Below are positions 21,978 through 58,189 of a stretch of DNA of 64,000 nucleotides, piece by piece; within the stretch, counting starts at the first letter, position 1; each line of letters begins with the position of its first letter. The translations under genes were made by a program, and so were the position numbers. Source of the DNA: Thelephora terrestris (taxonomy: Eukaryota; Basidiomycota; Agaricomycetes; Thelephorales; Thelephoraceae); assembly GCA_015956445.1 (NCBI GenBank), contig WIUZ02000009.1:434001-498000 (forward strand), in the 5' to 3' direction. The notes beneath the pieces were generated by a model, which did not search any database, was not told the DNA's origin, and saw only the letters and a list, made by a program, of their open reading frames with translations.

Positions 21978-22914
21978 CTTTGTGTCAGGGCCACTCTTCG
22001 CCCTTCAGGTACCAGTGCTGTTGGTGAGTCGCAACTCCAACCAACAAGAAACAATGGGGCAAAGGGGGAACGACTTCCCTATATCCACCCAAAGTCTACG
22101 TGGTCCAAAACGCGATGGACGAGCGTTCTCCGGTAGGTTGTCCGAATTCACAACAGGAGTGCCGAGCCTCTATCAGGTAAATCCCTATCGTCTTCTGAGG
22201 GCAGATACAAGAGCCCGAGGATGGCGCCTCAAACTGATGACTTGATCCAAAGAGCAGTGCGGAACTCGATGTCGTGTCCGAGCTCGCTTCAAACACCGGT
22301 TAGGGATCAAGACTGAGTGAGAGAGGAGAGCGAACGGTTCAAGGAGTTACTCGATAAGCTCTTCAGTGGCCTACAGCAAATACACCGATGCTGCAAGGAG
22401 AAGAGGACTTCCCGAGATATCAAAGATGGGGAGTCCTCAGCTACTCTACTGGTACCTATATAGGAGAGTGGCCGGGACATAGATAACCCTATCTAATAAT
22501 AACTCGGAGCAAAGAAGGGCCGAGAGTAAGCACGAACAGTAAGCGGCCCGGAGTATAGAATTGAAATGATAAGGGAGTGACTAATGGGTCAGGGTTCGTG
22601 AGAGAATAAGAAAGGGGTCATGACGTCGTGTGGGAAAGGAATGACAAAGGATAATATCACATGCAAGGACGAACCAATGAGAGGACGACGCGTCAGCTCG
22701 TCCGATCGGGACAATCAAAAGACCGAGTGGGACTTGAATGTCGAGGGCGAATGTATGAGGAGTCTGGGTCGGTGAAACAATGGACCGATCCAATGGCGAA
22801 TAGGACGCGAGCGCTGTCGATGGTCGAATAAAGCGTAGCGCGAACCGGTCGTTGGATCCATCAAACTCCCTTCTTCCTAAACCAACAATCCCACCAACCA
22901 ACTACTCATCCACT

Positions 22915-24666
22915 ATGCCCATGATCTCCGATCGAGTCTTCCGTGCTGAGAACAGCACCGCTACCATCGAGTCTGCGGACCCGCGCTCCGTGCAGAACAA
23001 GAGTTACTTCCTTCCGAACGCCAACATGGCGTACCCCAGTTATCGCGAGGTGCGACGTCACGTGTCGCCGTTTGCTGGCAACAACTGACATCGCATCGTA
23101 GATCTTCGCGGTTGCCGACAAGGTGGATGCTCGACAACTGGAGGCCACGATCGCCAGGCCTCCCCACTACTTGACCATAGATGACGAGTTGTGGTATCAC
23201 AACTTGATTGACCACAAGTTGCAGGAGTCTATGCGCGGGGTCACGTTCGACACCGAGTTGTGTATGCCATGGGAGACTCCGGTGGCGTCATCGTTGTGGG
23301 GTCTTCTGAAGATGGGGATCTACGATCTGGGGAATGGAGAAGGAAGATGGCCTGGAGCGACTCGCTCCCAACACTATACAGCAGCCGTCGGTCACCGCCT
23401 TTGGTTCCTATTGAGGACGGAACAGAAAGCGGTGAGTCGGTCTGTGCATCCCGCTTGTGGGATGACACTGATTGACTTCTTAGAATGAGCGGCTGAAGCG
23501 TGAGGTGAAGGAGGCGAAGGACGACGCCCGTAGGATGTACTCGGAGGCGTTGGACATGAAGAAAACGCTCCTCCTTATGAACGACACTCTTCGGGTGACG
23601 TTTGAGAGCGAGATGCTGGCAATGCGCGAGGAACACAACCGGTTGGTTGAGTCCTTGAAGGAACGGGACGACACCATCCAACGAGACCTGATCGAGGTCG
23701 ACCGACGGCTCAACCGTCATAGAAGGGCTCTGAATGAGCTCGACACCAAGGTCGGTGCGACTTCTCCTGGTCTTTACCCAAGAGAGCTCACGCCACTTCT
23801 AGGTTGACACGTTGGACGACGCCTTGCCATTGCTGGGTGCTCGGGTCGAGTCCATGAGCGAGCGGTTGTGCCATTGCCGCACTCGTTCGGTGGCTGCGGT
23901 TCGCAACGAGTCCGGAGACGAGTCGATTCCTGATCGGATGGCTTCTCCCATAGGTGGGATGTCGGTTGACATATTTGGCTTGTCCACTGACATCCCTTCT
24001 TAGCTTCCGATGGGTCGTACCGCACACCTGCGCATACTGATGGCGGGGAGGAGGTCGTTCGCAAGACGTCCGAGGAGACGGCGGTTAACCCGGTCAGCAG
24101 TTCTCCGGAGTTGGAGTATGCGGGGGAGAACGAGGTAGCCGTTCCGGTTCCGCCTCCATCGATCTCTCCGGTGCGTGGGCAGCGTTCCATCCGTGCTCGT
24201 CGGTGGGTTCCTTATCGTGGGGCGCTTCGTCCAGCGCACCGCATGCGTCCCAGCAATCCCAACATTGTCCGCCAGGGTGGAGACATTGAGTCCACCGTCC
24301 TATTCCGATGCGACGATGCTACAGTGTCGCGTGGATCGCGGCGAGCTGATTCCAGTGGAGTCCGTCGACGTGAACGGCTTAACCGACCTTACGCTCTTGT
24401 CAGTCCAGCGTGCAGCGGAGGCCGTTCGCCTGGTGGCTCAACTGACCGAGAGAGTGGAGGGTTGGTCAGTCCAGAGGACTCTGGATCAGACTATGGTCGA
24501 TTCAGCGAGGAACCGCCTTCGCGCCGAGGTTCAGCTGGCCGTAGCTCATCGTCTGGAGGAAGCTCGGGTCGTCGAGATGGTCGATGAGGAAGTCGACGAG
24601 AGTGCCTCGGAGGGGATGGAGGAGGAGGTTGCCAGTGCTGAGGAGTACTGGCAGACTAGGTCTTGA
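22915..24666 (+). CDS. D protein: coiled-coil protein of unknown function, 493 aa
   Basis: Exons 22915-23049, 23102-23431, 23484-23750, 23803-23953, 24004-24170 and 24235-24666 join in phase with GT-AG introns of 50-64 nt and give 493 aa. The second ATG at 22921 is also possible. Exon 2 has LTIDDELWYHNLIDHKL; exon 3 is a charged helix typical of a coiled coil (ERLKREVKEAKDDARRM, MREEHNRLVESLKERDDTIQ); exon 4 has a Cys pair (LCHCRTR); the C-terminus is a Glu-rich helix ending EEYWQTRS. It is a paralogue of the C protein (same order DDELW, ERLxREVKEAK, CxC, and same last intron). No catalytic motif is seen. Function unknown; an RNA- or DNA-packaging or regulatory role would be guesswork. Confidence 0.75.
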
Positions 24667-24683
24667 CGACTAGGGTTTGTACA

Positions 24684-25184
24684 CACTGGGGGCAGGGGCA
24701 CCTGGAATTGGTGATTACATCTTGATTATATGGTGAGTTCATGTGCACTTTTCAATAATTGTAATTGCTGATTCCAGGTTGATTACATTTCAAATGTTAC
24801 CTTGTCATGTAATCTAGCCAATGTCCACCAATTCCATTTGAAATGTTCTCAAAAAATGTTACTGGGATGTTTTTTACCTGTCGGCAAAAATGATACTGCA
24901 ATGTAGTCAACATGTTCTTCAATCGTCTGAGATGTAATCTAAATGCGCTCAAAAACATGAGATGTTTTTACAATGTACCCACTGGGCACATTCAGGAAAC
25001 ATTGCTTGGGAACATTTTGAGAAAATATAAAATGGAGTTGGTGGCAACAGTTGAATTACATGTCAAGGTAACATTTGAAATGTAATTAACCTGGAATTGG
25101 CATTTACAATTATTGAAAAGTGCACATGAACTCATCATGTAATCAAGATGTAATCACCGATTTCAGGCGCCCATGCCCCCAGTG
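24684..25184. mobile_element. CACTG element, subfamily c (3-bp TSD ACA)
   Basis: 501 bp with CACTGGGGGCA and TGCCCCCAGTG ends and inverted halves. ACA flanks it at 24681-24683 and 25185-25187. The same position in D#2 (34505-34530) is uninterrupted (GGGTTTGTGCGCCTTAG) and acts as an empty site, confirming the 3-bp duplication. It lies 17 bp beyond the stop codon of the D gene. Confidence 0.95.
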
Positions 25185-25425
25185 ACACCTTGGTCCTCGT
25201 TCATAGAGTCCGGGCGGATTCAACTCTGTCGGTTTGGTAGTCCTGTGTCTTCGCTGCGCGCCGTGTGTAATATCATCAGTGTCCTTGTCTGTGTTCCTTG
25301 ATGACGTGTGAGTCGTGATACGGAAATGATAAAAATAAGAAAGGGGTATAGGTAAGGAAAGTGGGCGAAAGTTGGGTGTAAAAATGGTTCAAAAAGGGAA
25401 TAAAATTCAGCACGCTGACACTTTG

Positions 25426-27795: not shown

Positions 27796-28093
27796 CTAAC
27801 ACAAAGTAGCCCAGCCAACTTAAGCTGAAGTAGTCCATCTAACCTAACACCTACCTAATATGCCCTGTTTCCACCCAACTCCATGTATGCCAGCTTAAGC
27901 TAATTTTCCCAGCTACCAACACATGAGTTGTGTCAGGGCCACTCTTCGCCCTTCAGGTACCAGTGCTGTTGGTGAGTCGCAACTCCAACCAACAAGAGTC
28001 AATGGGGCAAAGGGGGAACAACTTCCCTATATCCACCCAAAGTCTACGTGGTCCAAAACACGATGGACGAGCGTTCTCCGGTAGGTTGTCCGA

Positions 28094-29068
28094 TGACCCG
28101 CCGCCTATTTGCGCGACCTTTGAATCTAGTGCTAGTCCCCAGTCCCTACCTCCCTACCCCGCTAGCTACTGACTACGCGAGCCAACGACCCCTCGATTGG
28201 TCACAGGAGGGTCACGTCCACTTGACATCCCGATCATCGAGCCATTCCCACAATCCCTTCGACGCACGTCATCGCACGCTGTTTCTGCCTCCGTGGCCGT
28301 CCTTCCCGAACAGCACGTGATGTTGTGATCGGCCGATGTCTCCCGATCCCTTATCTTGTCGAGATGACGTGTCCCCTCCCTCGGTCCGGTTCCCTTCAAG
28401 TCTAGACACGTGTCAACTCGTTCCCTCTCGCTCGCCAATCATCTTTGACTGCTCCCGCTCTCCCACCTGGTTACGATCTTTTGATCTCGAACCTGTAGAC
28501 TTCCCCTTTCGGTTCTGTTTCTCACGATCGCTCCATCCTCTCGGTAAGTCCTGTCCCAGCCTCGTTCCGGCCTCCCGATGAACCATTTGTCTCCCTACCC
28601 TGCATCGGACTCTCGTTTATCCCCTTCTATCTACCTGTTCTTATTCTCCCACCGTTTCTCCATTTGTTCGCTACTTTTCCCATCTCTTTTGCGTAGATCA
28701 CACTGTCTTTACCTATAAATACCCTGTACTAGCTAGTTGAACGAACAAGAAACCCCCGGGGCCTCTTCACACCTCTTCTCCCTTCTGCCTGAACGACCTG
28801 ATCATCGAAAACCTCCAGCTCCTCGCTCTGACATCGATTCCACTAGCCCCATAGTTCCAATAGCCCCCTAGCCCATCATCATCGTCTAGCAGGAGTTTGC
28901 TAGTACGGAGTTCTCCCTTCTCGTCCCGACAACGTCACGACCTACCGTGGTTCCCTCTCCTCTGTCTAGCTTCTCTCCCCTTCCCGACCTCTGCACAACC
29001 GGCGACCCCTCACCCCCACTTCTGCTATTCTGGTCGTGTCCCGACTCCACCCGGATAGTAGCAGTTCA
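28094..29068 (+). mobile_element. Solo-LTR-like insert (TG...CA, 4-bp TSD CCGA)
   Basis: Compared with D#1, D#2 has 975 extra bases that begin TGACCCG and end GCAGTTCA, flanked by CCGA at 28090-28093 and 29069-29072. Inside, TATAAATACC at about 28715 is followed by a CT-rich leader, the layout of an LTR U3-R-U5. No internal retroelement region is present, so it would be a solo LTR. Confidence 0.55.
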
Positions 29069-29079
29069 CCGAATTCACA

Positions 29080-30032
29080 CACTGGGGGCAAGGGGTCAAA
29101 TACCTGGTGGGTACATGCTGAACACATTGTGATCACAGTCAACAAGTGATCGCAATGTGCCCAGTGGGGGAAATTTGAATACATTCAAAATGCGCCCGGC
29201 CATGTGAGTCCAATGTGCCCAGTAGGCACATTTTGATTGTGATCACAATGTACCCATCAATGTGATCTCAATGTGCCCACTGGGGACATTTTGATTGCGA
29301 TCACAATGTACACATCAATGTGAACTCAATGTGCCTGCTGTGCACATTTTAATTTCTTTCACAATGTTCCCATCAATGTGTTCCCAATGTACCCAGCTCA
29401 TTACATAATAGTTTCTTTCACAATGTTGTCCACAATGTGTCCAGCATGTGGCTGAGCCACTCATTCAAAATTCTTTCACAAAGTATCCAGTGATGTGTAC
29501 ATAATGTCCCCAGGGGGTTCTTTTTGAAGTAATCACAATGCAATCACAATATTGTTCAATTTCACCATGAACTTTCAAAGAAATCACTATGTGTATGGCT
29601 GTGCACATTCTAGACACATCACTGGGTAATCTTTAAAAGAATTTTGAATGAGTGGCTCAGCCACATGCTGGACACATTGTGGACAACATTGTGAAAGAAA
29701 CTATTATGTAATGAGCTGGGTACATTGGGAACACATTGATGGGAACATTGTGAAAGAAATTAAAATGTGCACAGCAGGCACATTGAGTTCACATTGATGT
29801 GTACATTGTGATCGCAATCAAAATGTCCCCAGTGGGCACATTGAGATCACATTGATGGGTACATTGTGATCACAATCAAAATGTGCCTACTGGGCACATT
29901 GGACTCACATGGCCAGGCACATTTTGAATGTATTCAAATTTCCCCCACTGGGCACATTGCGATCACTTGTTGACTGTGATCACAATGTGTTCAGCATGTA
30001 CCCACCGGGTATTTGACCCCTTGCCCCCAGTG
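29080..30032. mobile_element. CACTG element, subfamily b
   Basis: 953 bp, ends CACTGGGGGCAAGGGGTC and its complement, with inverted halves rich in CACATTGTGATCACA-type motifs. The expected 3-bp duplication is not visible (ACA left, TTT right), in keeping with loss of target DNA at the right side. A close copy lies at 51931-52813. Confidence 0.85.
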
Positions 30033-30427
30033 TTTGTAGAATGAGCATTTGAAGCGCGAGGTGAAGGAAGCGAAGGACGATGCTCGCAGGATGTACTCGG
30101 AGATGCTGGACACCAAAAAGACTCTCCTCTTGATGAACGACACGCTTCGGGTGACGTTCGAGAGTGAGATGCTGGCGATGCGGGAGGAACACAACCGACT
30201 GGTCGAGTCGTTGAAGGAACAAGACGACACCATTCAGAGAGACTGTCAGGAACATGGTATTTTTAAACTTTTTATAATACGCTCTTTCTTCGAACACTTC
30301 TTATCACTTCTTATGTTTTGAATGCTTCACACTCCTTATCCTTCACACCAATCATTCGAAACACACACACGCGCGTACTATCCGCAGCGAAGCCACAACG
30401 AGCTATACAAGTGCTATCCTAATCCCA

Positions 30428-32167
30428 TCAAAAGTCGACTCTATCTACGGCAGGCCTGAAGGTCATCAACTGTCCATCCCGGAGATCGTAGTGCTGGCCC
30501 CTCCTCGCAAGAACCTCCCCGAACATGGCGTCACCATCTTCAGCACTCAGCTGAACGACTAGTTCAAGCCGATAGGAAGAGATGCCTTCGAGCGGACCGA
30601 TCAGCCTCCCAGATGTCACCGAACTGCTGAACACCTGGTCCCACATCTCCATCACCGGGTGACTGCTCGACAGAACTGTCGACGTAGTCGGCAAGCGACC
30701 CTCCGTCTCCCTCGTCGGACCCCTGGGTGGGATCCTGAATTGCGAGTCTACGCTGGTGGCGAAGCTGGATCTCCGACTTGACTTGTCGGTAGGGACGGTT
30801 GACCCGATAGCGGAACTCTCGTCCCCTATCTCGACCAGACTGGTCACCATCCGACTCAACTGGACGCGGGTATGGGTAAGCCGATGGAGCCATGCGATGA
30901 GCAGGACGGCGTCGAGAGCGTTTGCAACGTTGCCCCTTAGTCACCGGACGTACCTCAGCGACCCTCGGAGCATCTTCAGCTCGGTCCACCTCCATGACCT
31001 CATCCTCGATCTTCACCAACTGATGGATCGGCTGCAAGACACAGCGCCCACAGTTCTCCTTGTCGGAAGCGGCCAACGTAGAAGCCGGAGCCGGAGTCGG
31101 AACGGGAACCGAGTTCTCGATCGGAGGCGTCGCATAGGACGACGGGTTAGGCGATGGGATTACCACCTCGTCGGCGTACTCCAGCTCGAACGGAACATCG
31201 GCTGTTCCCTGACCAACCAATTTGGGACCCTCCTTACAGTTGCAAGTTCTGTCCTGCAAGGACTCAACCTGTGCTGTCAACACAGCCACCACGTTCTCAA
31301 GTTCTTCGGTCTAGGAAATGTCAGCTTCCATCATTCTAAGCAAATGATGAAAGCGGCATTACCTTTTCATCCCTCCTGGCCAACGCCCCCTTGATGTTGT
31401 TATCCCTAACCTTCAACCCGGCGATCAACTCTTGATGGTTGGCGACCATTGCCTCCAACGCCTCGTTCGTCCCCTGCTGGAAGGCAGCCAAGGTCTCCTT
31501 CAATTGAAGACCCTCTGCTGACAGACGAAGGACGTCTGCCTTCGCCTCCTTCACTTCGCGCTCCAATCGTTCAACCTAGGCAGTCTGATTAGTCGAGAGT
31601 CATACTCGAATATTCAGACGGAAAACCTACCCGGCTTTCTCCCTCCCGAACGAGCGACCACAAAAGGCTAGTGGAAGCGGTAGCATGGCGGACGGCCCGA
31701 GGAACAGTAGCTCCGTGTTCCAATAGGTCCTGATCGTAGATTCCCCTTTGCAGGGTGTACCAGAGCTCCTTCTTGACTGGATGCTCCAACTCTCCGAACC
31801 TACCCCTCATCTGGAAGGCCACCTTCTCGGCGATGATCGTGCGGACCCAGAGCTCGTCATCCCAGGTCAACCCCCTCAAATGAGGCATCGTCTCCCTGAG
31901 ACGTTCGGCGTCCACTTCCGTGACGACCTCCAAGATCTAGAAGCCGTTAGTTTGACATCAAACGCCAAAAGAACGTTCCTCTACCTAGAGGAAGGCGTTA
32001 GTGCGAACACACGAAGCTCTAGGTCTCCCCCATACCTGGTCATCTGTGGCATAGGGAGTCCCAGCCGCACAGGCATAGGTCTTGCGAGCGGCGGCACGAC
32101 GGTCGATGCGAGAAATGGTGGAGATGCCGTTGGCGACCTTATAGGTATGGTTGTTGGGGAAGGACAT
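30428..32167 (-). CDS. C protein: coiled-coil protein of unknown function, 479 aa
   Basis: Exons on the minus strand: 32167-32036, 31936-31631, 31575-31363, 31310-30954 and 30859-30428, with GT-AG introns, all in phase, giving 479 aa. Start MSFPNNHTYKVANG. Exon 2 contains LTWDDELWVR; exon 3 is a coiled coil (RLEREVKEAKADVLRLS); exon 4 has CNC and CGRC cysteine pairs and a Pro/Val-rich linker (ENSVPVPTPAPAST); the last exon has SSHPVMEMWDQVFSSS and LELVVQLSAEDGDAMFGE. Without the last intron, two overlapping open frames appear; splicing explains both. A TATA-like CTATAAGAAGG lies upstream of the start (32231-32241). No known fold recognised. Confidence 0.75.
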
Positions 32168-33115
32168 GTTTTGGTAAGATGATGGGGAAGTTGTTGGTGT
32201 TGCTGATCAAGGATGGCTCCAAGAAGACGTCCTTCTTATAGCCTAGATCGGTGATCCTTCACGTGACCTACCTCGACGAACCTCATTGGTCCGGGTCACA
32301 TCAACTTCCGCCCCTGTACCATCATCGTTGGCTTACTACATCAAGCTGACACCTCGGCCCGCGGGACGGCCTTGGAAGAACTTCGTTCCGGAACGCCTAG
32401 AACGCGCGCGCACTAAAAATAGGTCTCATGACCTTGACGACCCCTTTACGAACCCCCTTTATGACCCTGATGACTCATTTATGACATCATGATAACGACC
32501 AACCCTGGACCCTGGAACACACACGTGGGCACGGGGTATCAACATTTGGACACTGTGCTTCTAATCGGATAGTAACCCTACCTGATCTAGTTGTGCTTTG
32601 GAAGCAGAGTAAGCCTGAGCCGAGAACGGCGGCCGAAGAATATAATCCCTGGTGCCACTTAGGAAGAACGATATTCCCAGGTGCTATGCCTAATCAAGAC
32701 TGGGTCTGATCAAGTGATTACGGCTGCAACTCCCAGGTTACTGCCTGTCCGTTGGTATTATACCACCTACCGACAACAAGGGATGTGTAGAGTTCCTTCG
32801 ATCTCTAGCCAATCACAGAAGCTCAGAGATGGTGCTCACCTGACCCTTGGGTGTGGTCTAGATTCAGGTACGAACTTTCATGACCCATGCCCCCTTTTTC
32901 TTTTAGGACTAGTGTTATCTTTGCCCCTATGTTTCATGCGGACTATTGTTATCTTTTTATGCAATCCTTCACACGCTAGTAAGGCCCTTTGTCCTTTATT
33001 TCCCCACGTGTCGTATTTGTTCGCTTCCCTTACTTAGCGTTCTCACACTCCTTATCTCCCTTTGTTCTGGACTTGATAAGGGTATATTAGGGTATTGATG
33101 TCATGGCCACTCCAT

Positions 33116-33126
33116 AGTATAAGTAG
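33116..33126 (+). promoter_or_regulatory. Outward TATA-like box of C#3
   Basis: AGTATAAGTAG lies 450 bp from the TGACA end and is conserved at the same distance in C#1 (44063-44073) and C#2 (about 45041-45050, reverse strand). It points away from the C gene, out of the element. Confidence 0.45.
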
Positions 33127-35129
33127 CAACTGTGGCTGTATCGTAGTACCTTAGTTTTGTTACCTCAGGAAATCCTCTGCCCTTCTCAGCCCAGTTGCAG
33201 TTAAGGACAAGTCAGAGTTTCTTGTTTGATCCAAGACATCCCCATCTGCTCTCCCTCCCGCTCTGCGCGTCAACTGCGCCTCGTAACTATAGACTCCCAG
33301 CAGTCATATTAGAACACCTCGAGCGTCCAGTCAATCAACTGGTGGAGTCATCAATCCTGTTGTAGGGATCAACCCTTGCTTGTTAAACCGAACGAAGTGC
33401 GGTTTAGGTTGGGTTTCTCTTTAGGATTTCGACCTGACTTGTAGTGACCTCGGACAACCTACCGGAAGAATAGAGACGTGATCGTTCTCTCACAAGCTAG
33501 TTGGACTAGTGAGTACTCTGCGGAGTCGGCTCAGTGGACTGGTAGTTGTTGGGGTAGAGTGGCCCTGACAGAGACTTGATCAAGGTTGACTGACGGCTCA
33601 ACCGTCATAGAAGGGCTTTGAACAAGTTGGACACCAAGGTTGGCGTGATGTTCCCCCGTAGTTATCGGAGGAAACTCATTCCACTTCTTAGGTTGACACG
33701 TTGGATGACGCCTTGCCCTTGCTGGGTGCTTGGGTCGAGTCCATGAGCGAGCAGTTGTGCCATTGCCACACTCGTTCGGTGGCCGCGGTTCGCAACAAGT
33801 CCGATGACAAGTCGATTCCGGACAGGATGGCTTCACCAGCCTCTGGCGGTTTGTACCATACACCGGCGCGTACCGATGGCGGGGAGGAGGTCGTCCGTGA
33901 GACGTCTGAGGAGACGGCGGTCAACCAAATTAGCAGTTCGCCCGAGTTGGAGTACGCGGGGGAGAATGAGGTGGCCATTCCGGTTCTGCCTCCTTCAATC
34001 TCTCCGGTACGTGGACAGCGTTCCATTCGTGCCCGTCGATGGGTTCCTTACAACGGTGCTTGTCGTCCAGCCCATTGAATGTGTCCCAGCAATTCCGACG
34101 TCGTCCAACAGGGAGGAGACATCGAATCCACCGTCCTATTCCGACGCGACGATGTTGCAGTGTCGCCTGGATCGCGGTGAGCTAATCCCCGTGGAGTCCG
34201 TGGACGTGAACGAATTAACGAGCCTTATGCTCTCGTCGGTCCTGCGTGCAGCGGAGGCCGTGAGGTTGGTGACTCAACTGACCGAGAGAGTGGAGGGCTG
34301 GTCAGCGCAGAGGACTTGGGATCAGACTATGGTCGATTCAGCGAGGAGCCACCTTCACGCCGAAGTTCAGCTGGCTGTGGCTCATCATCTGGAGGAAGCT
34401 CGAGTCGTCGAGATGGTCAACGAGGAAGTCGTTGAGAGTGCCTCAGAGGGGACGGAGGAGGAGGAGGTTGCCAGTGCTGAGGAGTACTGGCAGACTAGAT
34501 CTTGACGACTAGGGTTTGTGCGCCTTAGTCCTCGTCCATAGAGTCCGTGCGGATTCAACTCTGTCAGCTGGTCGTCTCGTGTCTTCGCCGTAGTCGTGTC
34601 GTGTAATATCATCAGCGTTGTTCCTTCCTATGACCTGTGGGTCGTGAATGAAGAAACTGATAGGAGAAAGGGGTATGGGTAAGGAAAGTGAGCGAAAGTT
34701 GGGTGTGAAAATGGTTCAAAAAGAGGGTAAAATTCAGCACTCTGACAAGTTGGCTAACAGAAACATAAAGCAAACTGTAGGCCTCCTCCCCCTCAAACAT
34801 CCTGTGCACAATCATTACTCAAGCAAACCAGGGAAAAGATCTAGTGGACCTATAATCTCAGTGGTTGAACTTGGCCGACAAGCATGCTTGCTGAGTTATT
34901 GTGATACATATGTGTGCCTGTGGGCTTGCAGATCCACTAAATTGTCAGTCTAGGTAGATTTGAGTAGTGATTGTGCAGAGCGTGGGGGGGCTGCAGTTTA
35001 CTTTATGTTTCTGTGACCCAGTTCACATTTTTGTAACTGGAACAAGGTAGCTTAGGCTGGCATACATTAGGTTAGGTTGAAATAGGGAATGTTAGGTAGG
35101 TGTTAGGTTAGATGGACTACTTCAGGTTA

Positions 35130-36308: not shown

Positions 36309-37000
36309 CACTGGGGGCAGATCCCCACTTACCCGGCAGGCAAATTGAGGGTTTGAGTGTTTCAACAATTTACTCAGATTCTACCCAGTGAGTTAATTGT
36401 GAACAACTTCAAAACTTACCCACCACTTTCCCCACACTTTGATCAGTGGGTAAGTTTTGAATTTGTTTTGAGCAAGCTCATCAGTTTGCCCGTCAGGCAC
36501 TTCTTTGACAAAGCTCCAAGGGTTCTTTCACAAATTACCCAGAAATTTGCCCACAACATGTTCAATCATGTACACAGTGGGATTGTTGAGAGTTTGTCAA
36601 GAAATTGGGCATATTGAGAGTTTTTTGTGATTACATCAAAGAAAACTCGGTGGGTATGTTACTGAGTATGTTGTGAGCAAGTTTTGAAAGAACTCTTGAT
36701 AAGTGGCTCAGAGCATGTGGTGGGTACATTTGGTGCAATTTGTGAAAGAACCCTTGGAGCTTGTCAGGAACATGGTATTTTTAAACTTTTTATGACACGC
36801 TCTTTCTTCGAACTCTTCTTACCATTTCTTATTGTTTGAATGCTTCACACTCCCTTTCCTTTGTTCCATCATTCGAACACACAAACGCGCAATACATTCA
36901 AGCCAAACTGGAACCACAAGGCTATACTACAATGCTTATAAATGTCCTATCAAAAGTCGATCCTATATACGGCAGGCACCTGTCAGGGTTGAAGGCCTGC

Positions 37001-37624: not shown

Positions 37625-38248
37625 ACACTGACAGGAGGATTCCTGCTTGAATGAGTCAGATAAGAGTAAGGCGTGAGGAGAATTTCTTCAGCTTACTTTT
37701 GTTTTATTGAGCAGTTGGTAGGAGAGTACAGAAGAGATTGAGAATGGGGAAAAGAAGGAGTGAATGCTCTTCCTTATATACCCAATCCTTTACATGCTTA
37801 GTAATCCTACAATGAGTCAAATGAGAATCAACATGGTCTGTGTGTAGTTTAGGGCAGGGTGACTGAGTCAGAGAAGTGGGACTTAGGACGACTGATGGTA
37901 AATACAAATAGGGGAACAATAGGAGATGAGTCAATAGGAGTGCAATGGGGATTTCCCGTGATCGGTGGGGATTTCTTAGGTTTCATGGTGGTATTAGAAG
38001 GGTGATGGGGATTTCCCGTGATCGGTGGGGATTTCTCCCAGAATTGATGGGACCGATTGGGGTTGAGGGTTATTTATCCCTTTTGGGACAATAATGAATA
38101 ATGGTGCATTGTTGTTACCCTTTTGGGCGTCCCATTGATCTGGACGTATTTAGGCTGGGGGACGTCTTGGACTTTTCCTCTTCATTGTCTCTTTTCCACT
38201 CCCACCAATCTACAATAACTCTCCCCCTCGCAAAAAACTTTTGCTACT

Positions 38249-38645: not shown

Positions 38646-38665
38646 TGTCAGGGTTGTAGGCCTGC

Positions 38666-40827: not shown

Positions 40828-40937
40828 GTTTGTAGTTCCTTTTAGTCACCTTTGTATTATTATTACTGCGAATGAGACCAATGTCTTGAATTATTTGTGA
40901 GATCTTGGCTACTATGTCACGCGTTCGTGACACCAAT

Positions 40938-41411: not shown

Positions 41412-41515
41412 CTTTCATACCGGCTTGTTTTGTTTTTGTATAACTACGAATAAGACCAATGTCTTGGATAACCTGTGTGATTTTCCTCATTATGTCACGC
41501 ATTCGTGACAGCACC

Positions 41516-43215: not shown

Positions 43216-44592
43216 AGATGATGGGGAAGTTGTTGGTGTTGCTGATCAAGGATGGCTCCAAGAAGATGTCCTTCTTATAGCCTAGATTGGTGATCCTTCA
43301 CGTGACCTACCTCGACGCACCTCATCGGTCCAGGTCACATCAACTTCTGCCACTGTACCATTATTGTTGGCTTACTACATCAAGCTGACACCTCGGCCCG
43401 CAGGACGGCCTTGGAAGAACTTTGTTCCAGAACGCCTAGAACACCCGCGCACTAAGAATAGGTCTCATGACCCTGACAAACTCTTTACGAACCCCTTTAC
43501 GACCCTGATGACTCATCACGATAACAACCAACCCTGGACCCTGATCACACACGTGGACAGTCACATCACAGTCTCCTAACCGGAGGAAGGAATCACTGCT
43601 ACTTGGAAGAATCGCCTTAGGATCCTTCTGGTTAGCTCAGTGAATGTGGAAGTAGCCGTTAGCGTGAAACACCGGCGAAGCATGTAATCCCTCATGTCCC
43701 ATGAGTCTAGGCCCAACCTCCTTATGTTCGGACGTACATTGAGGTTGCCACTAGTCTGTGATGCTGTATGGATCCTGATCTCGGAGCTGCTCGAAAATTG
43801 CACGAAGCAATGAGACATTTCCACCTGACCCTTGGGTGTGGTCCCGAGGTACGAACTTTCATGACCCCATGCCCCCCTTTCTTTTAGGACTAGTGTTATC
43901 TCTTATGCATTCCTTCACACGCTAGTAAGGCCCTTTGTCCTTTATTCTCCCACGTGTCATATTTGTTCGCTTCCCTTACTTAGCGTTCTCACACTCCTTA
44001 TCTCCCTTTGTTCTATCTTGATAAGGGTATATTAGGGTTGCTGATGTCATGGCCACTCCATTAGTATAAGTAGCAACTGTGGCTGTATCGCAGTATCTTA
44101 GTTTTGTTACCTCAGGAAATCCTCTGCCCTTCTCAGCCCAGTTGCAGTTAAGGACAAGTCAGAGTTTCTTGTTTGATCCAAGACATCCCCCATCTGCTCT
44201 CCCTCCCGCTCTGCGCGTCAACTGCACCTCGTAACTATAGAACCCCAGCGTTCATATTAGAACACCTCGAGCATCCAGTCGATCGCCTGGTGGAGTCATC
44301 AATCCTGTTGTAGGGATAAACGCTTGCTTGATAAACCGAACGAAGTACGGTTTAGGTTGGGTTTCCCTTTAGGATTTCGACCTGACTTGCAGCGACCTTG
44401 GACAACCTACCGGAAGAATAGAGGTGTGACCATCCTCTCACAACTAGTTGGACTAGTGAGTACTCTGTGGAGTCGGCTCAGTGCACTGGTAGTTGTTGGG
44501 GTAGAGTGGCCCTGACAGAGCTTTGTCAAAGAAGTACCTCATGGGCAAACTGATGAGCTTGCTCAGAACAAATTCAAAAATTACCCACTGAT

Positions 44593-47500
44593 TGTCAGGG
44601 CCACTCTACCCCAACAACTACCAGTGCACTGAGCCAACTCCGCAGGGTACTCACTAGTCCAACTAGTTTGTGAGAGAACGATCACGTCTCTATTCTTCCG
44701 GTAGGTTGTCCGAGGTCACTACAAGTCAGGTCGAAATCCTAAAGAGAAACCCAACCTAAACCGTACTTCGTTCGGTTTATCAAGCAAGCGTTTATCCCTA
44801 CAACAGGATTGATGACTCCACCAGGCGATCGACTGGATGCTCGAGGTGTTCTAATATGAACGCTGGGGTTCTATAGTTACGAGGTGCAGTTGACGCGCAG
44901 AGCGGGAGGGAGAGCAGATGGGGGATGTCTTGGATCAAACAAGAAACTCTGACTTGTCCTTAACTGCAACTGGGCTGAGAAGGGCAGAGGATTTCCTGAG
45001 GTAACAAAACTAAGGTACTACGATACAGCCACAGTTGTTACTTATACTAAAGGAGTGGCCATGACGTCAATACCCTAATATACCCTTATCAAGTCCGAAC
45101 AAAGGGAGATAAGGAGTGTGAGAACGCTAAGTAAGGGAAGCGAACAAATATGACGCGTGGGAGAATAAAGGACAAAGGGCCTTACTAGCGTGTGAAGGAT
45201 TGCATAAAAGATAACAAATGTTCACATGAAACATAGGGGTGAAGATAACACTAGTCCAAAAAGAAATGGGGGCATGGGGTTATGAAAGTTCGCACCTGGG
45301 GATCACACCCAAGGGTCAGGTGAGAATCTTCTTGGATGCTTCCTTTGGAGAGGCCAAAGATAGAGACCATGCAGCATCCCTTGTTGTCTGTAGGCGGTAA
45401 CAGCATCACGGACTAGTGGCAACCTCAACGTGCATCCAAACATGAGGAGCGCAGGCCTAGACTCATGGGACATGAGGGATTACAGATTCGCCAGTGTTTC
45501 ACGCTAACGGCTACTCCACATTCGCTGAGCTAAACAAAAGGAGTCTAAGGCACTCCTTCCAAATAACGGTGATTCCTTCCTCTGGTTAGGAGACTGTGAT
45601 CTGACTGTCCACGTGTGTGATCAGGGTCCAGGGTTGATCGTAATTGTAAAGTCATGAGGGGTCGTAAAAGGGGTTCGTGATGTCATAAAGGGGTCATCAG
45701 GGTCTTGAGACCTATTTTTAGTGCGCGCACATTCTAGGCATTCCGGAACAAAGTTCTTCCAAGGCCGTCCCGCGGGCCGAGGTGTCAGCTTGATGTAGTA
45801 AGCCAACAATGATGGTACAGGGGCGGAAGTTGATGTGACCCGGACCAATGAGGTTCGTCGAGGTAGGTCACGTGAAGGATCACCAATCTAGGCTATAAGA
45901 AGGACGTCTTCTTGGAGCCATCCTTGATCAGCAACACCAGCAACTTCCCCATCACCTTACCAAAACATGTCCTTCCCCAACAACCATACCTACAAAGTCG
46001 CCAACGGTATCTCCACCATCTCCCGTATCGACCGCTGTGCCGCCAACCGTAAGACCTATGCCAGTGAAGCGGGGGTTCCCTATACCACGGATGACCAGGT
46101 ATGGGGGAGATCTAGTGCTTTTTGCACTTGCGCTAACTTTTCCCTCTAGGTAGAGGTTACGTTCTTTTTGGCGTTGATGTCAAGCTAACGGCTTCTAGAT
46201 CTTGGAGGTCGTCAAGAAGGTGGACGCCGAACGTCTCAGGGAAACGATTCCTCATTTGATGGGGTTGACCTGGGATGATGAGCTCTGGGTCCGGTCCATG
46301 ATCGCCGAGAAGGTGATCTTCCAGATGAGGGGTAGGTTCGGGGAATTGGAGCATCCGATCAAAAAGGAGCTCTGGTACACCCTGCAGAGGGGGATCTATG
46401 ATCAGGACCTGTTGGAGCACAGGGCGACTGTTCCTCGGGCCATCCGTCATGCCACCGCTTCCACCATGCTGTTGTGGTCGCTCGTTCGAGAGGGGGAAAG
46501 CCGGGTAGGTTTTCCGTTTGGATATTCAAGTATGACTCTCGACTAACCAAACTGCCTAGGTTGAACGATTGGAGCGTGAGGTGAAGGAGGCGAAGGCAGA
46601 CGTCCTTCGTCTGTCAGCAGAGGGTCTTCTGATGAAGGAGACTCTGGCCGCCTTCCAGCAGGGAACAAATGAGGCGTTGGAGGCGATGGTGGCTAACCAT
46701 CAAGAGTTAATCGCCGGTCTGAAGGTCTGAGACAACAACATCAAGGGTGCGTTGGCTAGGAGGGACAATAAGGTACTTTCAGTCTTTGCAGGTATATGCA
46801 ACAACTGAGAGACTTCTTCTAGACTGAACAGGTTGAGGACTTGGTGTCCGTGTTGACGGTGCAGGTCGAGTCCTTGCAGGACAAGACCTGTAACTGTAAG
46901 AAGGGTCCCGTGTTGGTTGGTCAGGGGACTGCCGACATTCCGTTCAAGCTGGAGTACGCCGACGAGGTGGTACTCCCATCGCCTAACCCATCGTCCTATG
47001 CCACTCCTCCGATTGAGAACGTGGTTCCCGTTCCGACTCCAGCTCCAGCTTCCACTCTGGCCAAGTCCGACAAGGAGAACTGTCGGCGTTGCCCGCTGCA
47101 GTCGATCAGTCAGCTGGTCAAGATTGAAGATGAGGTCATGGAAGTTGACCGGGCCGAAGATGCTCCGAGGGCCATGGAGGTACGTCCGGTGACAACAGGG
47201 CAGCGTAGTAAACGCTCTCGATGCCGCGTTGCTCATCGCATGGCTCCCTCGGCTAATCCTTATCCGCGTCCAGTTGAGTCGGATGGTGACCAGTCTGGTC
47301 GAGATGAGGGACGATCCTTCAGATACCGGGTCAACCGTCCCAACCGACAGGTCAAGTCGGAGATCCAGCTCCGACACCAGCTTCGTCTCGCAAGACAGGA
47401 TTCCACCCAGGGGTCCGACGAGGGAGACAGAGGGTCGCTCTTCGACAGCGCTGCCGAGCAGTCACCCGGTGATGGAGATGTGGGACCAGGTGTTCCGCAG

Positions 47501-47882
47501 TTCGGTGACATCTGGGAGGCTGATCGGTCCGCTTGAAGGCATCTCTTCATATCGGCTTGAACTAGTCGTTCAGCTGAGCGCCGAAGATGGTGACACCATG
47601 TTCGGGGAGGTCCTTGCAAGGAGGGGCCGGTTCTTCGATCTCCGGGATGGAACGCTGATGACGATGAGGCCTGCCGTAGATAGAGTTGACTTTTGATGGA
47701 CTTGGATAGCACCATATATAGCCATGTTGTTACGATTCGCTGGGAATGGTACGCGCGTTTGTGTGTTTGAATGATTGGTGTGAAGGATAAGGAGTGTGAA
47801 GCATTCAAAACATAAGAAGTGGTAAGAAGAGTTCAAAGAAAGAGTGTGTTATAAAAAGTTTAAAAATACCATGTTCCTGACA
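44593..47882 (+). mobile_element. TGTCA element C#2 (5-bp TSD CTGAT)
   Basis: Begins TGTCAGGGCCACTC and ends ATGTTCCTGACA, flanked by CTGAT at 44588-44592 and 47883-47887. 3290 bp, in the opposite orientation to C#1 and only 70 bp away from it. One C gene on the plus strand (45967-47696) with TATA-like CTATAAGAAGG at 45893-45903. Confidence 0.9.
45967..47696 (+). pseudogene. C protein gene of C#2, near-intact
   Basis: Exon pattern 45967-46098, 46199-46504, 46560-46772, 46823-47179, 47274-47696, matching C#3 in number and phase. Blocks: MSFPNNHTYKVANG, LTWDDELWVR, RLEREVKEAKADVL, TCNCKKGP, KENCRRC, VMEMWDQVFRSS. It looks broken in about one place, otherwise whole. The last intron (GTACGT to CGTCCAG, 94 nt) sits at the same site as that of D#1. 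Confidence 0.7.
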
Positions 47883-48890: not shown

Positions 48891-48914
48891 AGGGTGTCAG
48901 GGTTGTAGGCCTGC

Positions 48915-49538
48915 TTACTGATTGTGGGGCGCTAGAGGATTAGCAGTGGGGTGAGGGGTGTCGGGTCTGGTTTTGAAGGGAGTTCCGGGTGTGGAGATGA
49001 GGGGAGGAGGAATATCAAGTGAGAGGGGTGACTCGGTTTGGTAAGGGTGAACGGGCGAGTGGTAATCTTGACAGAACTGACTAAGTTGCTGCACAAACGG
49101 TTCGAAGTCTTGATCGCTAAGGCGTTCGAAGTTGACGAGATATTCTATGACGGAATAAGGTAATTCAGTTGGAATTTCCCACCAGAGAACGATGATAGCA
49201 GGGGAATGGGTGTGAATGTTAGTCGTGAGATGAACGCGTGGAGAGGGGAAGTAAAAGGCCGGGCTAATACTGAAGTAGACAGTCGCAAGGACGCTCTCAG
49301 TAAGATCTGAATTCCAGAGGAATTGATGATCTGCTCCTAATAGAAATGGAGGAGTGGTGACTCCGGCGTCGAGAGCTGCAAAGGGTCGATAGTATGGAAA
49401 GTGAGTAAGTAAGCCGGCGGTTCGGTTTACTTGAAGACTTCTGATGAGTTTATACTCCCAGATAGACCTTCTGGCGTCAGGGATGTCTGGTCGCTGGATG
49501 GGACTGGTAGAGGGGAAAGGGTTAGGGGCGCTGAACAT
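48915..49538 (-). CDS. A protein, copy 3, 207 aa, unknown function
   Basis: Starts MFSAPNPFPSTSPIQRPDIP, closely similar to copy 2 along its length, with FLLGADHQFLWNSDLTES and NIHTHSPAIIVLWWEIP. The frame is intact and the TATATAAGG box upstream (near 49683-49690, minus strand) is conserved. Confidence 0.8.
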   Translation of the reverse strand: MFSAPNPFPSTSPIQRPDIPDARRSIWEYKLIRSLQVNRTAGLLTHFPYYRPFAALDAGVTTPPFLLGADHQFLWNSDLTESVLATVYFSISPAFYFPSPRVHLTTNIHTHSPAIIVLWWEIPTELPYSVIEYLVNFERLSDQDFEPFVQQLSQFCQDYHSPVHPYQTESPLSLDIPPPLISTPGTPFKTRPDTPHPTANPLAPHNQ

Positions 49539-50133
49539 ACACTGGCAGGAGGATTCCTGCTGAAATGAGTCAGAAGAGGTAAGGCGTGAGGAGAATTCCT
49601 CAGCTTACTTTTATTCAGGTTGTGGGTAGAGGAGTACAGAAGAGATTGAGAATGGGGAAAAGAAGGAGCGGATGCTCTTCCTTATATACCCAATCCTCTA
49701 CAGGAGTCATTATTCTACAACGAGTCAAACAAGAGTCAACATGGTCTGTGCGTAGTTTAGGGTAGGGTAGATGAGTCAGAATGAGGGGACTTAGGACGAC
49801 AGATAGTAATTACTCATACGGGAACAATAGGGGCACGAGTCGATGGAAGCGTTCGGGGATTTCTCGTGTTTCGTGGTAGCAATAGAAGCGTGGTGGGGAT
49901 TTCCCATGATCGATGGGGATTTCTCTGGGTTTGATGGGATCGCGATCAGGGTTAAGGGTTTGTTTACCCTAATTCGGACTTTAATGGATAATGGGTTATT
50001 GTTTTCTCTTTCCGGTTCGCCTTTGAGTCAGGAAGTATTTAAGTCAGGGGGATTAATGATCGTTCCCTCCATCGCCTCTTTTCCACTCCCACCAATCAAT
50101 CCACCACTCTCCTCCTAAACATCTGCTACTATC

Positions 50134-51037
50134 ATGTCTACCTTCGCCGCCAACAATGTTGTTCTCAACGCTGCCGCCGCCCCCTTCACTCCATCCTTCG
50201 AGACGGACGCTCCCTACAACGTGGAGCAACACTTGTACGACACCCCTGCCAACATCGCCCACGATAATCAAGTCGCCGTCAACTTCCTCACCGCTCACGA
50301 TGCTCCCGCTGAGTTCTGGGAGCAAGCTGGCTTCGACGACCCTAGGTTGTCTGGGCCTGTGGTTCAAGCCTTCCACCCTGGAGCCGTCCGGTTGTTGGAC
50401 GCCATGGAGAGGGAGAGGGAGGATAGGATCGCGAAGTTGGAGAAGCGGGTGGACCTCATGTACGTCATCATGAACAGCTTGAATGATGACTTCTCTCACT
50501 TTGCTTTGGAACATTGGGGACCTTTCCAGGCATCTCTCTTCCGATATTTCGGACACCAATGTCACGGGGCTTATTGCACCGACCCCCCTTGCAAGTCCCC
50601 AGTCATCCCTTCGCCACCGCCAGGATCAGGGTGTTCCTCTCCCTCCATCTCCTCCCTGGAGTCCTGCCCCAGTTCGCCAGATGGTGGAGAGGTCCCAGAG
50701 GAAGAAGACCCGCAAGAGTCCGATGACTCGTTCTGGTCAACGTTGTCGTCCCTCCGACAAGTCACGTCAGGTGAGGATGAGGTTGAAGGTGGAGGTGGCG
50801 GGTCTCCAAGACCGCTATGGGTTCGCATTAGTGAGCAAGGCCTTGTCGGACGTGCGACGAGAGATGTATGACAGTCTATCTCACGATGTGTTGGGGTGTA
50901 GGGAGTGTTGGCAGGATCCGGTGACGCGAGATTGGTCCTACTGCCCTGAGAGTATCCATAACCCTCACCACTTCGCTCATCGTTGCCCCCTTCCTCAGCA
51001 CTGTTCATGTGATGTCGACCCGTTTGTTCTTGTCTAA
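50134..51037 (+). CDS. B protein, copy 3, 277 aa, unknown function
   Basis: Exon 1 50134-50459, intron 50460-50529 (70 nt), exon 2 50530-51037. Same length and domain order as copy 2: MEREREDRIAKLEKRVDLM coiled coil, basic Ser/Pro segment, Cys/His-rich end (GCRECWQDP, HNPHHFAHRCP, CSCDVDPF). The intron ends and length are identical in all four copies. Confidence 0.75.
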
Positions 51038-51147
51038 GTTTGTAGTCCCTTTTAGCCACTCTTGTACTATTATTACCGCGAATGAGACCAATGTCTTGAA
51101 TTATTTGTGAGATCTTGGCTACTATGTCACGCGTTCGTGACACAGGG

Positions 51148-55316: not shown

Positions 55317-55319
55317 TGA

Positions 55320-55852: not shown

Positions 55853-55962
55853 AGAACTGTCACGAACGCGTGACATAGTAGCCAAGATCTCACAAATATT
55901 TCAAGACATTGGTCTCATTCGCAGTAATGATAATACAAAGTCGACTAAAAGGAACTACAAAC

Positions 55963-56866
55963 TCAGACAAGAACAAACGGGTCGATATCACACGAACAGT
56001 TCTGAGGGAGGGGGCAACGATGAGCGAAGTGGTGAGGGTTGTGAATACTTTCAGGACAATAAGACCACACTCGCGTCACCGGATCCTGCCAACACTCCCT
56101 ACACCCCAACACATCATGAGATAAGCTATCATACATCTCTCGCCGCACGTCCGACAAGGCCTCGCTCACTAATGCGAACCCATAGCGGTCTTGGAGACCC
56201 GCCACCTCCACCTTCAACTTCATCCTCACCTGACGTGACTTGTCGGAGGGACGACAACGTTGACCAGAACGAGTCATCGGACTCTTGCGGGTCTTCTTCC
56301 TCTGGGACCTCTCCACCATCTGGCGAACTGGGGCAGGACTCCAGGGAGGGGATGGAGGGAGAGGAACGCCCTGATCCTGGCGGTGGTGAAGGGACGACTG
56401 GGGACTTGCAAGGGGGGTCGGTGCAATAAGTCCCGTGACACTGGTGTCCGAAATATCGGAAGAGAGACGCCTGGAAAGGTCCCCAATGTTCCAAAGCAAA
56501 GTGAGAGAAGTCTTCATTCAAGCTGTTCATGATGACGTACATGAGGTCCACCCGCTTCTCCAATTTCGCAATCCTGTCCTCCCTATCCCTCTCCATGGCG
56601 TCCAACAACTGGACGGCTCCAGGGTGGAAGGCTTGAACCACAGGCCCAGACAACCTAGGGTCGTCGAAGCCAGCTTGCTCCCAGAACTCGGCGGGAGCAT
56701 CGTGAGCGGTGAGGAAGTTGACGGCGACTTGATTATCGTGAGCGATGTTGGCAGGCGTGTCGTACAAATGTTGCTCCACATCGTAGGGAGCGTCCGTCTC
56801 AAAGGATGGAGTAAAGGGGACGGCGGCAGCGTTGAGAACAACGTTGTTGGCGGTGAAAGCAGACAT
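55963..56866 (-). CDS. B protein, copy 4, 277 aa, unknown function
   Basis: Exon 1 56866-56541, intron 56540-56471 (70 nt, GTACGT to TTTCCAG), exon 2 56470-55963. Same domain order as copies 2 and 3. Start MSAFTANNVVLNAAAVPF follows a TATTTAAG-type box on the minus strand near 56960. Confidence 0.75.
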
Positions 56867-57390
56867 GATAATAGCAGATGTTTTAGAGGAGAAAGTGGTG
56901 GTTGATTGGTGGGAGTGGAAAGAGGCGATGGAGGGAACGATCATTAATCTCCCTGACTTAAATACCTCCTGACTCCAAAGCAGACCAGAAAGGAAAACAA
57001 TAACCATTAATCCATGAAAGTCCGAATTAGGATAAACAAACCCTTAACCCTGATCGCGACCCCATCAAACCCCGAGAAATCCCCATTGATCACGAGAAAT
57101 CCCCATTGATCATGGGAAATCCCCAACACGCTTCTATTGCTACCATTGATCCAGAGAAATCCCCATCGGACACGAGAAATCCCCACCATGCTTCTATTGC
57201 TACCACGAAACACGAGAAATCCCCGAATGCTTTCATCGACTCATGCCCCTATTGTTCCCGCACGAGTAATTACTACCTGTCGTCCTAAGTCCCCTCATTC
57301 TGACTCATCCACCCTACCCTAAACTACGCACAGACCATGTTGACTCTTGTTTGACTCGTTGTAAAATAATGACTCCTGTAGAGGGTTGGG

Positions 57391-57400
57391 TATATAAGGA
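57391..57400 (+). promoter_or_regulatory. TATA box of the A gene, copy 4
   Basis: TATATAAGGA, conserved in place before each A gene, followed by a CT-rich leader and a 49-nt 5'-UTR intron at 57471-57519 (GTAAGC donor, CTAAC branch motif, TTTTAG acceptor). Confidence 0.6.
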
Positions 57401-57540
57401 AGAGCGTCCGCTCCTTCTTTTCCCCATTCTCAATCTCTTCTGTACTCCTCTACTCATAACCTGAATACAAGTAAGCTGAGGAATCCTCCTCACGTCTTGC
57501 CTTTTCTAACTCATTTTAGCAGGAATCCTCCTGCTAGTGT

Positions 57541-58164
57541 ATGTTCAACGCCCCTAACCCCTTCCCATCTACAAGTCCCGTTCAGCGGCCAGTTGTCCCA
57601 GACGCTAGGAGATCTATCTGGGAGTATAAGCTCATCAGAAGTCTTCAAGTAAACCGAACTGCCGGTTTACTCACCCATTTCCCTTACTATCGTCCCTTTG
57701 CAGCTCTCGACGCCGGAGTCACTACTCCCCCTTTCTTGCTAGGCGCAGACCATCAGTTCCTTTGGAACTCAGACCTCACTGAGAGTGTCCTAGCAACCGT
57801 CTACTTTTGCGTTAGCCCCGCCTTTTATTTCCCGTCTCCCAAAGTTCACTTAACCACCAACGTTCACACTCACTGCCCTGCTCTCATCGTCCTTTGGTGG
57901 GACATCCCTACTGAACTACCTTATTCGATTATAGAATATCTCGTTCACTTCGAACAACTCAGCGGTCAAGATTTCGAACCGTTCGTTCAGCAACTAAACC
58001 AGTTTTGCCAAGACTATAACTCGCCCGTCCACCCTTATCAGACAGAGTCGCCACTCTCTCTTGATATCCCTCCTCCTCTCACCTCTACGCCCGGAACCCC
58101 TTTCAAAACTCGACCCGACACCCCGCACCCCTCCGCTAATCCTCTAGCGCCCCACAAACAGTAA
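57541..58164 (+). CDS. A protein, copy 4, 207 aa, unknown function
   Basis: Starts MFNAPNPFPSTSPVQRPVVP, 22 bases after a 5'-UTR intron. Blocks IWEYKLIRSLQVNRTAG, FLLGADHQFLW, TESVLATVYFCVSPAF, CPALIVLWWDIPTELPYS, QDFEPFVQQLNQF, and a Pro-rich tail. Open in all four copies at the same 207-aa length, which argues for a functional protein. Confidence 0.8.
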   Translation: MFNAPNPFPSTSPVQRPVVPDARRSIWEYKLIRSLQVNRTAGLLTHFPYYRPFAALDAGVTTPPFLLGADHQFLWNSDLTESVLATVYFCVSPAFYFPSPKVHLTTNVHTHCPALIVLWWDIPTELPYSIIEYLVHFEQLSGQDFEPFVQQLNQFCQDYNSPVHPYQTESPLSLDIPPPLTSTPGTPFKTRPDTPHPSANPLAPHKQ

Positions 58165-58189
58165 GCAGGCCTACAACCCTGACAAGAAC

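Follow-up and report, generated by a model that had tools for sequence, protein, structure and literature searches.

Solo chromovirus LTRs carrying a conserved antisense gene, and a two-gene unit with similar ends, in Thelephora terrestris

Nine nested units in the window

The window analysed here is a stretch of 64,000 nucleotides (contig WIUZ02000009.1, positions 434,001 to 498,000) from the root-associated fungus Thelephora terrestris. When it was scanned by script, all nine units with TGTCA...TGACA ends were recovered together with their exact and mutually different 5-bp duplications, as claimed in the initial annotation. Matching 5-bp flanks were found in 12 of 1104 candidate pairs, while 90 control counts with shifted flanks gave 1.06 on average and 4 at most. 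The three additional pairs (starts 12458, 25061 and 34562) were attributed to chance, as the family ends were not common to them. Inverted identity at the unit ends was limited to 5-8 bp. None of the best 150 of 155 integrase candidates fell within the window, in agreement with the earlier remark that no mobility enzyme was visible.

Both D units have TG...CA ends and 5-bp duplications. D#1 (21983..25420, plus strand by cargo-gene orientation, so that the gag-pol sense would be minus; duplication CTTTG) is a solo D LTR with a palindromic insert of about 500 nt (24684-25185) that most D copies lack, and its cargo stretches homologous to the C cargo (23081..23880, plus strand) consist of three blocks with 32-41% identity to P0028. 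D#2 (27931..34747, plus strand, AGTTG), also a solo D LTR, has a palindromic insert at 29076-30036, and its cargo is partly replaced, with C#3 nested inside the unit. C#3 (30244..33570, minus strand, GAGAC) is a solo C LTR in which the modelled cargo exons 1-4 (455 codons) are open.

The solo C LTR C#1 (36762..44517, minus strand, GAGCT) was the most diverged among the C copies compared, with a cargo gene broken by stops and by the loss of the third splice donor. It is interrupted by A/B#1 (36981..41510, plus strand, GCACC), whose gene A (37001-37624, minus strand) is open and whose gene B has a stop and is in turn interrupted by A/B#2 (38646..40932, plus strand, CCAAT). In the latter, gene A (38669-39289, minus strand) and gene B are both open. 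The third solo C LTR, C#2 (44593..47882, plus strand by cargo orientation, CTGAT), carries model cargo exons 1 (45967..46098), 2 (46199..46504), 3 (46560..46772) and 4 (46832..47537), all on the plus strand; exon 3 has an internal stop at model codon 203, and the second half of exon 4 is open in two frames, a region where public gene models disagree.

Like the two preceding A/B units, the remaining two contain a pair of divergent genes. A/B#3 (48895..51142, plus strand, CAGGG) has a single-exon gene A of 207 aa (48915..49538, minus strand) and a gene B modelled on the plus strand as exon 1 (50134..50770) and, after a predicted 61-nt intron, exon 2 (50832..51037). In A/B#4 (55858..58184, minus strand, AGAAC), gene B and gene A (57541-58161, plus strand) are open.

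Full-length relatives of the C and D units

The five C and D units of the window are solo LTRs of Ty3/gypsy chromoviruses, because paired copies elsewhere in the genome flank gag-pol and have the 5-bp duplication outside the pair. One C pair, at C1:546891-559509 (labels such as this one, C5 or C23 denote genome loci and are distinct from the window units C#1-C#3), is bordered by GATTA, and its two LTRs differ at 1 of about 2,210 sites compared. The D pairs on C5 and C23 are bordered by AACTG and ATGTC, respectively, so that an outer duplication was present in all three full-length elements with outer ends read. The giant solo LTRs with cargo genes suggested in the initial annotation are thus demonstrated for C and D. 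The junction pattern, the pol search and a search with interior DNA, in which all 14 candidates were scored, agreed on 8 C-type and 3 D-type full elements, whereas no A/B pair around gag-pol was found among those examined. A shared junction motif, a candidate primer region, marks the 8 C and 3 D elements, and purine-rich stretches precede the 3' LTR.

In these elements, gag has a zinc knuckle and Pfam matches in P0001 and P0003 place the pol domains in the order protease-RT-RNase H-integrase-chromodomain, with the rve match scoring 25.5 bits in P0001, below the curated cut-off of 32.6, and 34.3 in P0003; pol also has a Tf2-1-like SH3. The pol of C elements is 61-62% identical to that of D elements. 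The 5-bp duplication was exact at 25 of the 30 C loci read genome-wide, among them C#2 of the window. LTR ends outside full elements stood to full elements at about 401:8 for C and 124:3 for D, ratios that count terminal patterns and not whole units.

The zinc-knuckle gag, the pol order, the chromodomain, the TG...CA ends and the 5-bp duplications are those of fungal Ty3/gypsy chromoviruses and their solo LTRs. Unlike usual chromoviruses of fungi, the C and D elements have LTRs that measure 2.9-3.3 kb and contain a conserved antisense gene of several exons, and about 40-50 LTR ends outside per full element. The unusual feature is the LTR itself, which is very long and carries a conserved antisense gene. 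The chromovirus integrase would insert a full C or D element, after which recombination between the two LTRs would remove gag-pol and leave one LTR with the original duplication. As the gene sits in the LTR, such a deletion leaves the accessory gene behind.

Some arrangements departed from a simple pair. At C23, the positions point to a tandem LTR-interior-LTR-interior-LTR array, which fits unequal LTR recombination. The C pair C12:1300402/1305875 was rejected as a full-length element, since it consists of two solitary units. The LTRs of full-length C elements differ from each other by about 3-9%, compared to pol proteins that are 98-100% identical. At the DNA level, however, the interiors show 95-98% identity, and a single block of the LTR (positions 600-1200) accounts for much of the excess, so that no decoupling of LTRs and interiors is claimed.

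The A/B family and its possible origins

The A/B ends were matched 209 times in the genome. All 15 units with both ends read, including the four of the window, had TG...CA ends and were solitary with their own 5-bp duplication (13 exact, 2 with one mismatch), and none of them formed a pair flanking gag-pol. The junction pattern returned only C and D elements; as it assumes the C/D primer region, an A/B element whose primer site differs would escape it. At the combined C and D ratio, about 4.4 full-length A/B elements would be expected compared to 0 found (P about 0.013, a naive value that assumes equal solo formation). Gene A had a dN/dS of 0.04-0.13.

Several direct pairs of A/B or C copies were considered as full elements, and every unit in them with both ends read had its own duplication: C60:784595/796239, C1:183566/192758, C1:561748/565011, C5:567397/570849, C45:2510896/2514139, C23:1053195/1064229 and C59:619728/630289. 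Units read at one end, which remain candidates, were C1:192758, C5:570849, C59:619728, C2:872468, the lower unit on C45 and three on C23 (2473304, 2484218 and 2495015). A/B copies adjoining integrase matches at C1:3430148 and C2:870605 were also discarded, the frames there being Copia-like.

Most likely, although less certainly than for C and D, the A/B units would be the LTRs of a third, related element that is not present in full length in the assembly; we consider probable the whole picture of solo chromovirus C and D LTRs with an antisense gene and A/B LTRs of a third element. The new non-autonomous class moved by a retroelement-like integrase that was initially proposed need not be invoked for C and D, but may apply to A/B, for which no paired copies around gag-pol were found among those examined. 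A/B would then be an independent mobile unit of two genes, bounded by LTR-like ends and inserted singly, belonging to no gag-pol element and perhaps using the C/D integrase in trans, a reading we regard as rather unlikely. The solitary state of all fully read units speaks for it, as does the lack of any full-length form despite so many terminal matches and 413 candidate gene-A loci, yet the ratio test presumes equal solo formation and, for several units, the reading covered a single end. Of the 150 best-scoring loci, 141 had an open gene A, and dS between 8 copies was 0.34-1.60, indicating diverged lineages that were functional until recently. Same-strand neighbours within 25 kb among 150 loci were not in excess (39 compared to 45 on the opposite strand); spacings of 10.2-11.1 kb were slightly more common on the same strand (7 vs 3), yet two of the seven proved to consist of solitary units when both ends were read, and one was half read. 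Against a self-standing unit stand the ends and the duplication length, which are like those of the C and D LTRs, and the lack of a movement enzyme in the unit; to our knowledge, there is no route by which a lone LTR could be reverse transcribed. A broader version, in which A/B and perhaps some C/D lineages are mobile genes with LTR-type ends and no attached gag-pol, moved by the chromovirus integrase in trans and selected for proteins A and B, seems to us similarly doubtful. If true, A/B would be a hyperparasite of retroelements, stripped down to accessory genes between LTR ends. The family raises the sharp question of how its genes stay open when no full-length partner is seen.

A classification of the units as DNA transposons, of the Ginger or a similar integrase-derived kind, is scarcely credible. 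Ginger elements have integrase-related movement and TGT...ACA-like ends, which, with the short duplications and the inverted ends described above, fit the window units; they also encode their integrase within the unit and end in longer inverted repeats, both absent here. Pfam searches of six cargo ORFs (E up to 1) revealed neither the integrase nor the transposase that a DNA element would have in its interior, and the pairing of C and D copies as direct repeats around gag-pol refutes this reading for both. A capture of host genes by LTRs, with host selection keeping the solo LTRs as a dispersed host gene family, is also improbable, although a little less so. Hundreds of copies, frames mostly open in those examined and strong constraint would suit it, but the C-cargo matches listed (at least 72 protein clusters, all from T. 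terrestris and publicly labelled hypothetical proteins) included no single-copy or non-element relative. Furthermore, C and D cargo have diverged along with their elements (32-43% identity, compared to the pol values given above), and private changes were under weaker constraint than shared ones (N/S 0.43 and 0.22 of neutral expectation, respectively), the pattern expected from selection that acts chiefly on active source copies.

The cargo gene of the C and D LTRs

Each C or D LTR contains a multi-exon gene antisense to gag-pol, and the C and D genes are homologous and in the same orientation. The distance between the end of pol and the LTR is about 23 nt in the C1 element, where the cargo gene lies inside the LTR. 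The internal genes were considered coding because of their codon-position periodicity and of exon lengths that are multiples of three next to introns of variable length. Mean dN/dS of the C cargo was 0.134 over 378 pairs of 28 copies, which demonstrates constraint on the C protein. The internal genes were initially described as intron-containing, but gene A has a single exon. Their description as unlike any known family fits the Pfam (six cargo ORFs without a family at E up to 1, none above cut-off in cargo), PDB-sequence and homologue searches.

Solo LTRs are usually regarded as relics that retain nothing but regulatory sequence. In the present case, a protein gene under selection during the divergence of the lineages is found in hundreds of LTR copies. 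Tentatively, the most likely role for its product would be that of an element-level regulator serving the element in trans, e.g. against silencing or by limiting copy number. Action of solo LTRs in trans on their own family becomes a testable question. Since the gene is antisense to gag-pol, its introns would not be spliced from the genomic RNA and would survive reverse transcription, a layout that naturally mirrors the intron markers used to prove retrotransposition.

Partial parallels exist in other systems. Plant Retand retrotransposons have extra conserved ORFs antisense to gag-pol with a suspected regulatory role, a likeness by description and not by sequence; those ORFs lie between pol and the 3' LTR, a position not occupied by the cargo of the C1 element, whereas C/D cargo is inside the LTR, so that solo LTRs retain it (PMC11963269). 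VANC proteins (PMC10398659) are anti-silencing proteins of plant VANDAL elements and offer, by analogy only, a model of a transposon-encoded regulator acting on its own family, although VANDAL is a DNA transposon and C and D are retrotransposons. A protein-coding gene within an LTR is also found in MMTV, whose accessory gene sag is encoded there (PMC11998498). MMTV is an animal retrovirus, unlike the fungal C and D elements, and the likeness is one of gene location, not of protein comparison. The sag gene is in sense orientation. No report of protein genes inside fungal LTRs was found in the open-licence literature, which is weak evidence of absence, and the passages of PMC7550596 on the T. 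terrestris genome, which that paper treats, make no mention of LTR-borne genes.

Comparison of 31 C copies (and 9 of A/B) revealed a stop within the C cargo model in 7 of the 31, whereas the modelled exons were open in all four LTRs read from full-length elements. The product has a predicted coiled coil. The third splice acceptor of the C model is AA in 13 of the 31 copies and in the four LTRs of full-length elements, and public models of the C cargo place this acceptor a few bases upstream.

C and D units as terminal repeats of gag-pol elements

All nine TGTCA...TGACA units with 5-bp repeats claimed by the initial annotation (A/B#1-4, C#1-3 and D#1-2) were recovered by script, and their repeats were exact. 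Of the 1104 candidate TGTCA/TGACA pairs in the window, 12 were flanked by matching 5-bp sequences, whereas 90 counts with shifted flanks averaged 1.06 and never exceeded 4. A/B#2 is located inside A/B#1, A/B#1 inside C#1, and C#3 inside D#2. Excluding nested units, A/B units span 2.2-2.3 kb, C units 3.2-3.3 kb and D units 3.4-3.5 kb; where the palindromic insert seen in D#1 is absent, D copies measure 2.93 kb.

The window corresponds to C60:434001-498000 in the genome of the ectomycorrhizal basidiomycete Thelephora terrestris (40.6 Mb, 60 contigs). In this genome, D copies were found as direct pairs at C5:1119263-1122194 with C5:1128062-1130993 (outer duplication AACTG) and at C23:1909986-1912916 with C23:1918744-1921674 (ATGTC). 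The paired copies enclose a gag frame containing a CCHC knuckle and a pol frame that encodes protease, RT, RNase H, integrase and chromodomain, both frames on the strand opposite to the multi-exon cargo gene of the LTR. A C pair at C1:546891-559509 (outer duplication GATTA) flanks a gag-pol related to the D type and was recently inserted, because its two LTRs showed 1 difference in ~2,210 sites compared.

Among the 35 of 161 candidates that were scored in a pol search, eight C-type copies were 98-100% identical, three D-type copies 61-62%, and other pol families at most 33%. The C interior, used as a DNA query (14/14 candidates scored), returned the same eight and three and, at that sensitivity, no further interior relics; the junction pattern independently yielded 8 C-type and 3 D-type elements. 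The C-type copy on contig C4 lacks ~0.9 kb of interior, and that on C56 carries one in-frame stop. Two C-type interiors in tandem (G000:C23:1029450-1051400) have, by position, a common middle LTR, consistent with unequal LTR recombination. In the C LTRs L066-L069, two groups from full-length elements are 70-81% identical at positions 600-1200 (cargo orientation) and 89-99% outside this block, which looks as if it had been exchanged by recombination.

Allowing up to 3 mismatches, the terminal patterns matched 416 times for C, 130 for D and 209 for A/B, and the reversed control pattern gave 0 matches for each. After subtracting the LTRs that belong to full elements (15 in C, one being shared in the tandem, and 6 in D), the ratio of LTR ends outside full elements to full elements, counted as ends and not as whole units, was 401:8 for C and 124:3 for D. 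Exact 5-bp duplications were present at 25 of the 30 C loci read; L011, L030 and L038 had no match, the match at L017 ends short of one unit end, and the flank repeat of L023 is 15 bp long. The C and D units, five of the nine, are solo LTRs, ordinary in class and unusual in content, and would have arisen through LTR-LTR recombination.

The cargo gene of the C and D repeats

The C cargo was aligned in 31 copies (29 loci plus C#1 and C#3 of the window; L017 excluded), in which variation tracks codon position and shifts phase at the predicted introns. All exon lengths are multiples of three, with 132 nt for exon 1 and 306 nt for exon 2 in 31/31 copies, 213 nt for exon 3 in 30/31 (234 in one) and 705-714 nt for exon 4. 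Introns 1, 2 and 3 measure 98-101, 55-56 and 58-62 nt, each in 30/31 copies, the deviant copy being C#1. The third splice acceptor of our model reads AA in 13/31 copies and in 4/4 LTRs of full-length elements; public models place an acceptor just upstream of it and, in some cases, have a different last intron. A stop falls inside the model in 7/31 copies, including C#1 and C#2 of the window. Exon 4 (window 46832-47537) can be read in two overlapping open frames, between which public models differ (472 vs 481 aa), suggestive of either alternative splicing or mis-annotation.

Across 378 pairs of 28 equal-length copies (L009, L027 and C#1 dropped), mean dN was 0.044 and mean dS 0.326, a ratio of 0.134. 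Relative to a neutral expectation taken from the same mutation spectrum, N/S was 0.43 for private and 0.22 for shared changes, and stops numbered 5 vs 11.5 expected among the former and 3 vs 15.2 among the latter. Therefore, constraint on the C cargo is mostly ancestral and in part relaxed on the tips.

The D#1 cargo aligned with the C protein in the same orientation over three colinear blocks of 32-41% identity. Pfam returned weak coiled-coil matches, all below cut-off, for the C/D cargo, and a PDB sequence search no match. At least 72 proteins matched the C cargo, all from T. terrestris among the matches listed. Genome-wide, public annotation splits LTR cargo into many separate 'hypothetical proteins', and some models are chimeric across nested elements, such as P0075 and P0069, matched by both C and B queries.

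Both families combine LTR pairing, gag-pol content, duplications and an antisense cargo, with coding constraint shown on the C cargo. Being antisense to the genomic RNA would explain how the cargo gene retains its introns. By analogy with the antisense ORFs of Retand (PMC11963269) and with MMTV sag, a gene encoded in an LTR (PMC11998498), the cargo product may regulate its element.

The A/B units

Genes A and B diverge, pointing outward from the middle of the unit. The internal genes had been described as conserved and intron-containing; gene B (280 aa) has one predicted intron of 61 nt, but gene A (207 aa) is a single exon. Gene A gave dN/dS of 0.04-0.13 at dS 0.34-1.60 (28 pairs from 8 copies, one interrupted copy dropped). 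The gene B model is open in 5/8 copies, with GT in 8/8 and AG in 7/8. Gene A has 413 candidate loci genome-wide, and no stop was found in 141 of the best 150, a scoring biased towards intact copies. Pfam gave no above-cut-off match for A or B, and relatives of both are also present among metagenome proteins.

The four A/B units of the window fit the solo-LTR class by their ends and duplications, and fail the pairing test applied here. The longer relatives envisaged by the initial annotation, with paired copies around gag-pol, exist for C and D but did not appear for A/B, all 15 units with both ends read being solitary (duplications 13 exact, 2 with one mismatch), even though some were picked for a same-strand copy nearby, a choice biased towards pairs. 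Neighbours within 25 kb were 39 on the same strand and 45 on the opposite (best 150 of the 413 loci). No full A/B element was seen, against 4.4 expected for 209 ends if the ratio pooled over C and D applied (P ~0.013, naive). That A/B is a self-standing mobile unit, and not the LTR of a gag-pol element, is considered unlikely. The sense strand of A/B, as deduced from the shared end CCCTGACA, would make A an intronless sense gene and B, with its intron, an antisense one, in agreement with the antisense view of intron persistence.

Three of the 15 A/B units sit within gene B of another A/B unit (window 38646, G000:C23:1053195 and G000:C59:630289), as recognised by flanks reading as gene-B codons. 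Self-targeting is possible, in a sample biased by the two cases outside the window having been picked for closeness to another copy.

Large palindromes in the window

Four large, near-perfect palindromes look like foldback elements. The arms at 3115-4388 and 4467-5740 are 94% complementary, and this palindrome holds a 35-bp minisatellite and telomere-like AACCT/AGGTT arrays. Those at 15884-16798 and 19659-20573 are 100% complementary, those at 29076-29513 and 29599-30036, inside D#2, 97%, and those of the palindrome at 24684-25185, inside D#1, ~75%.
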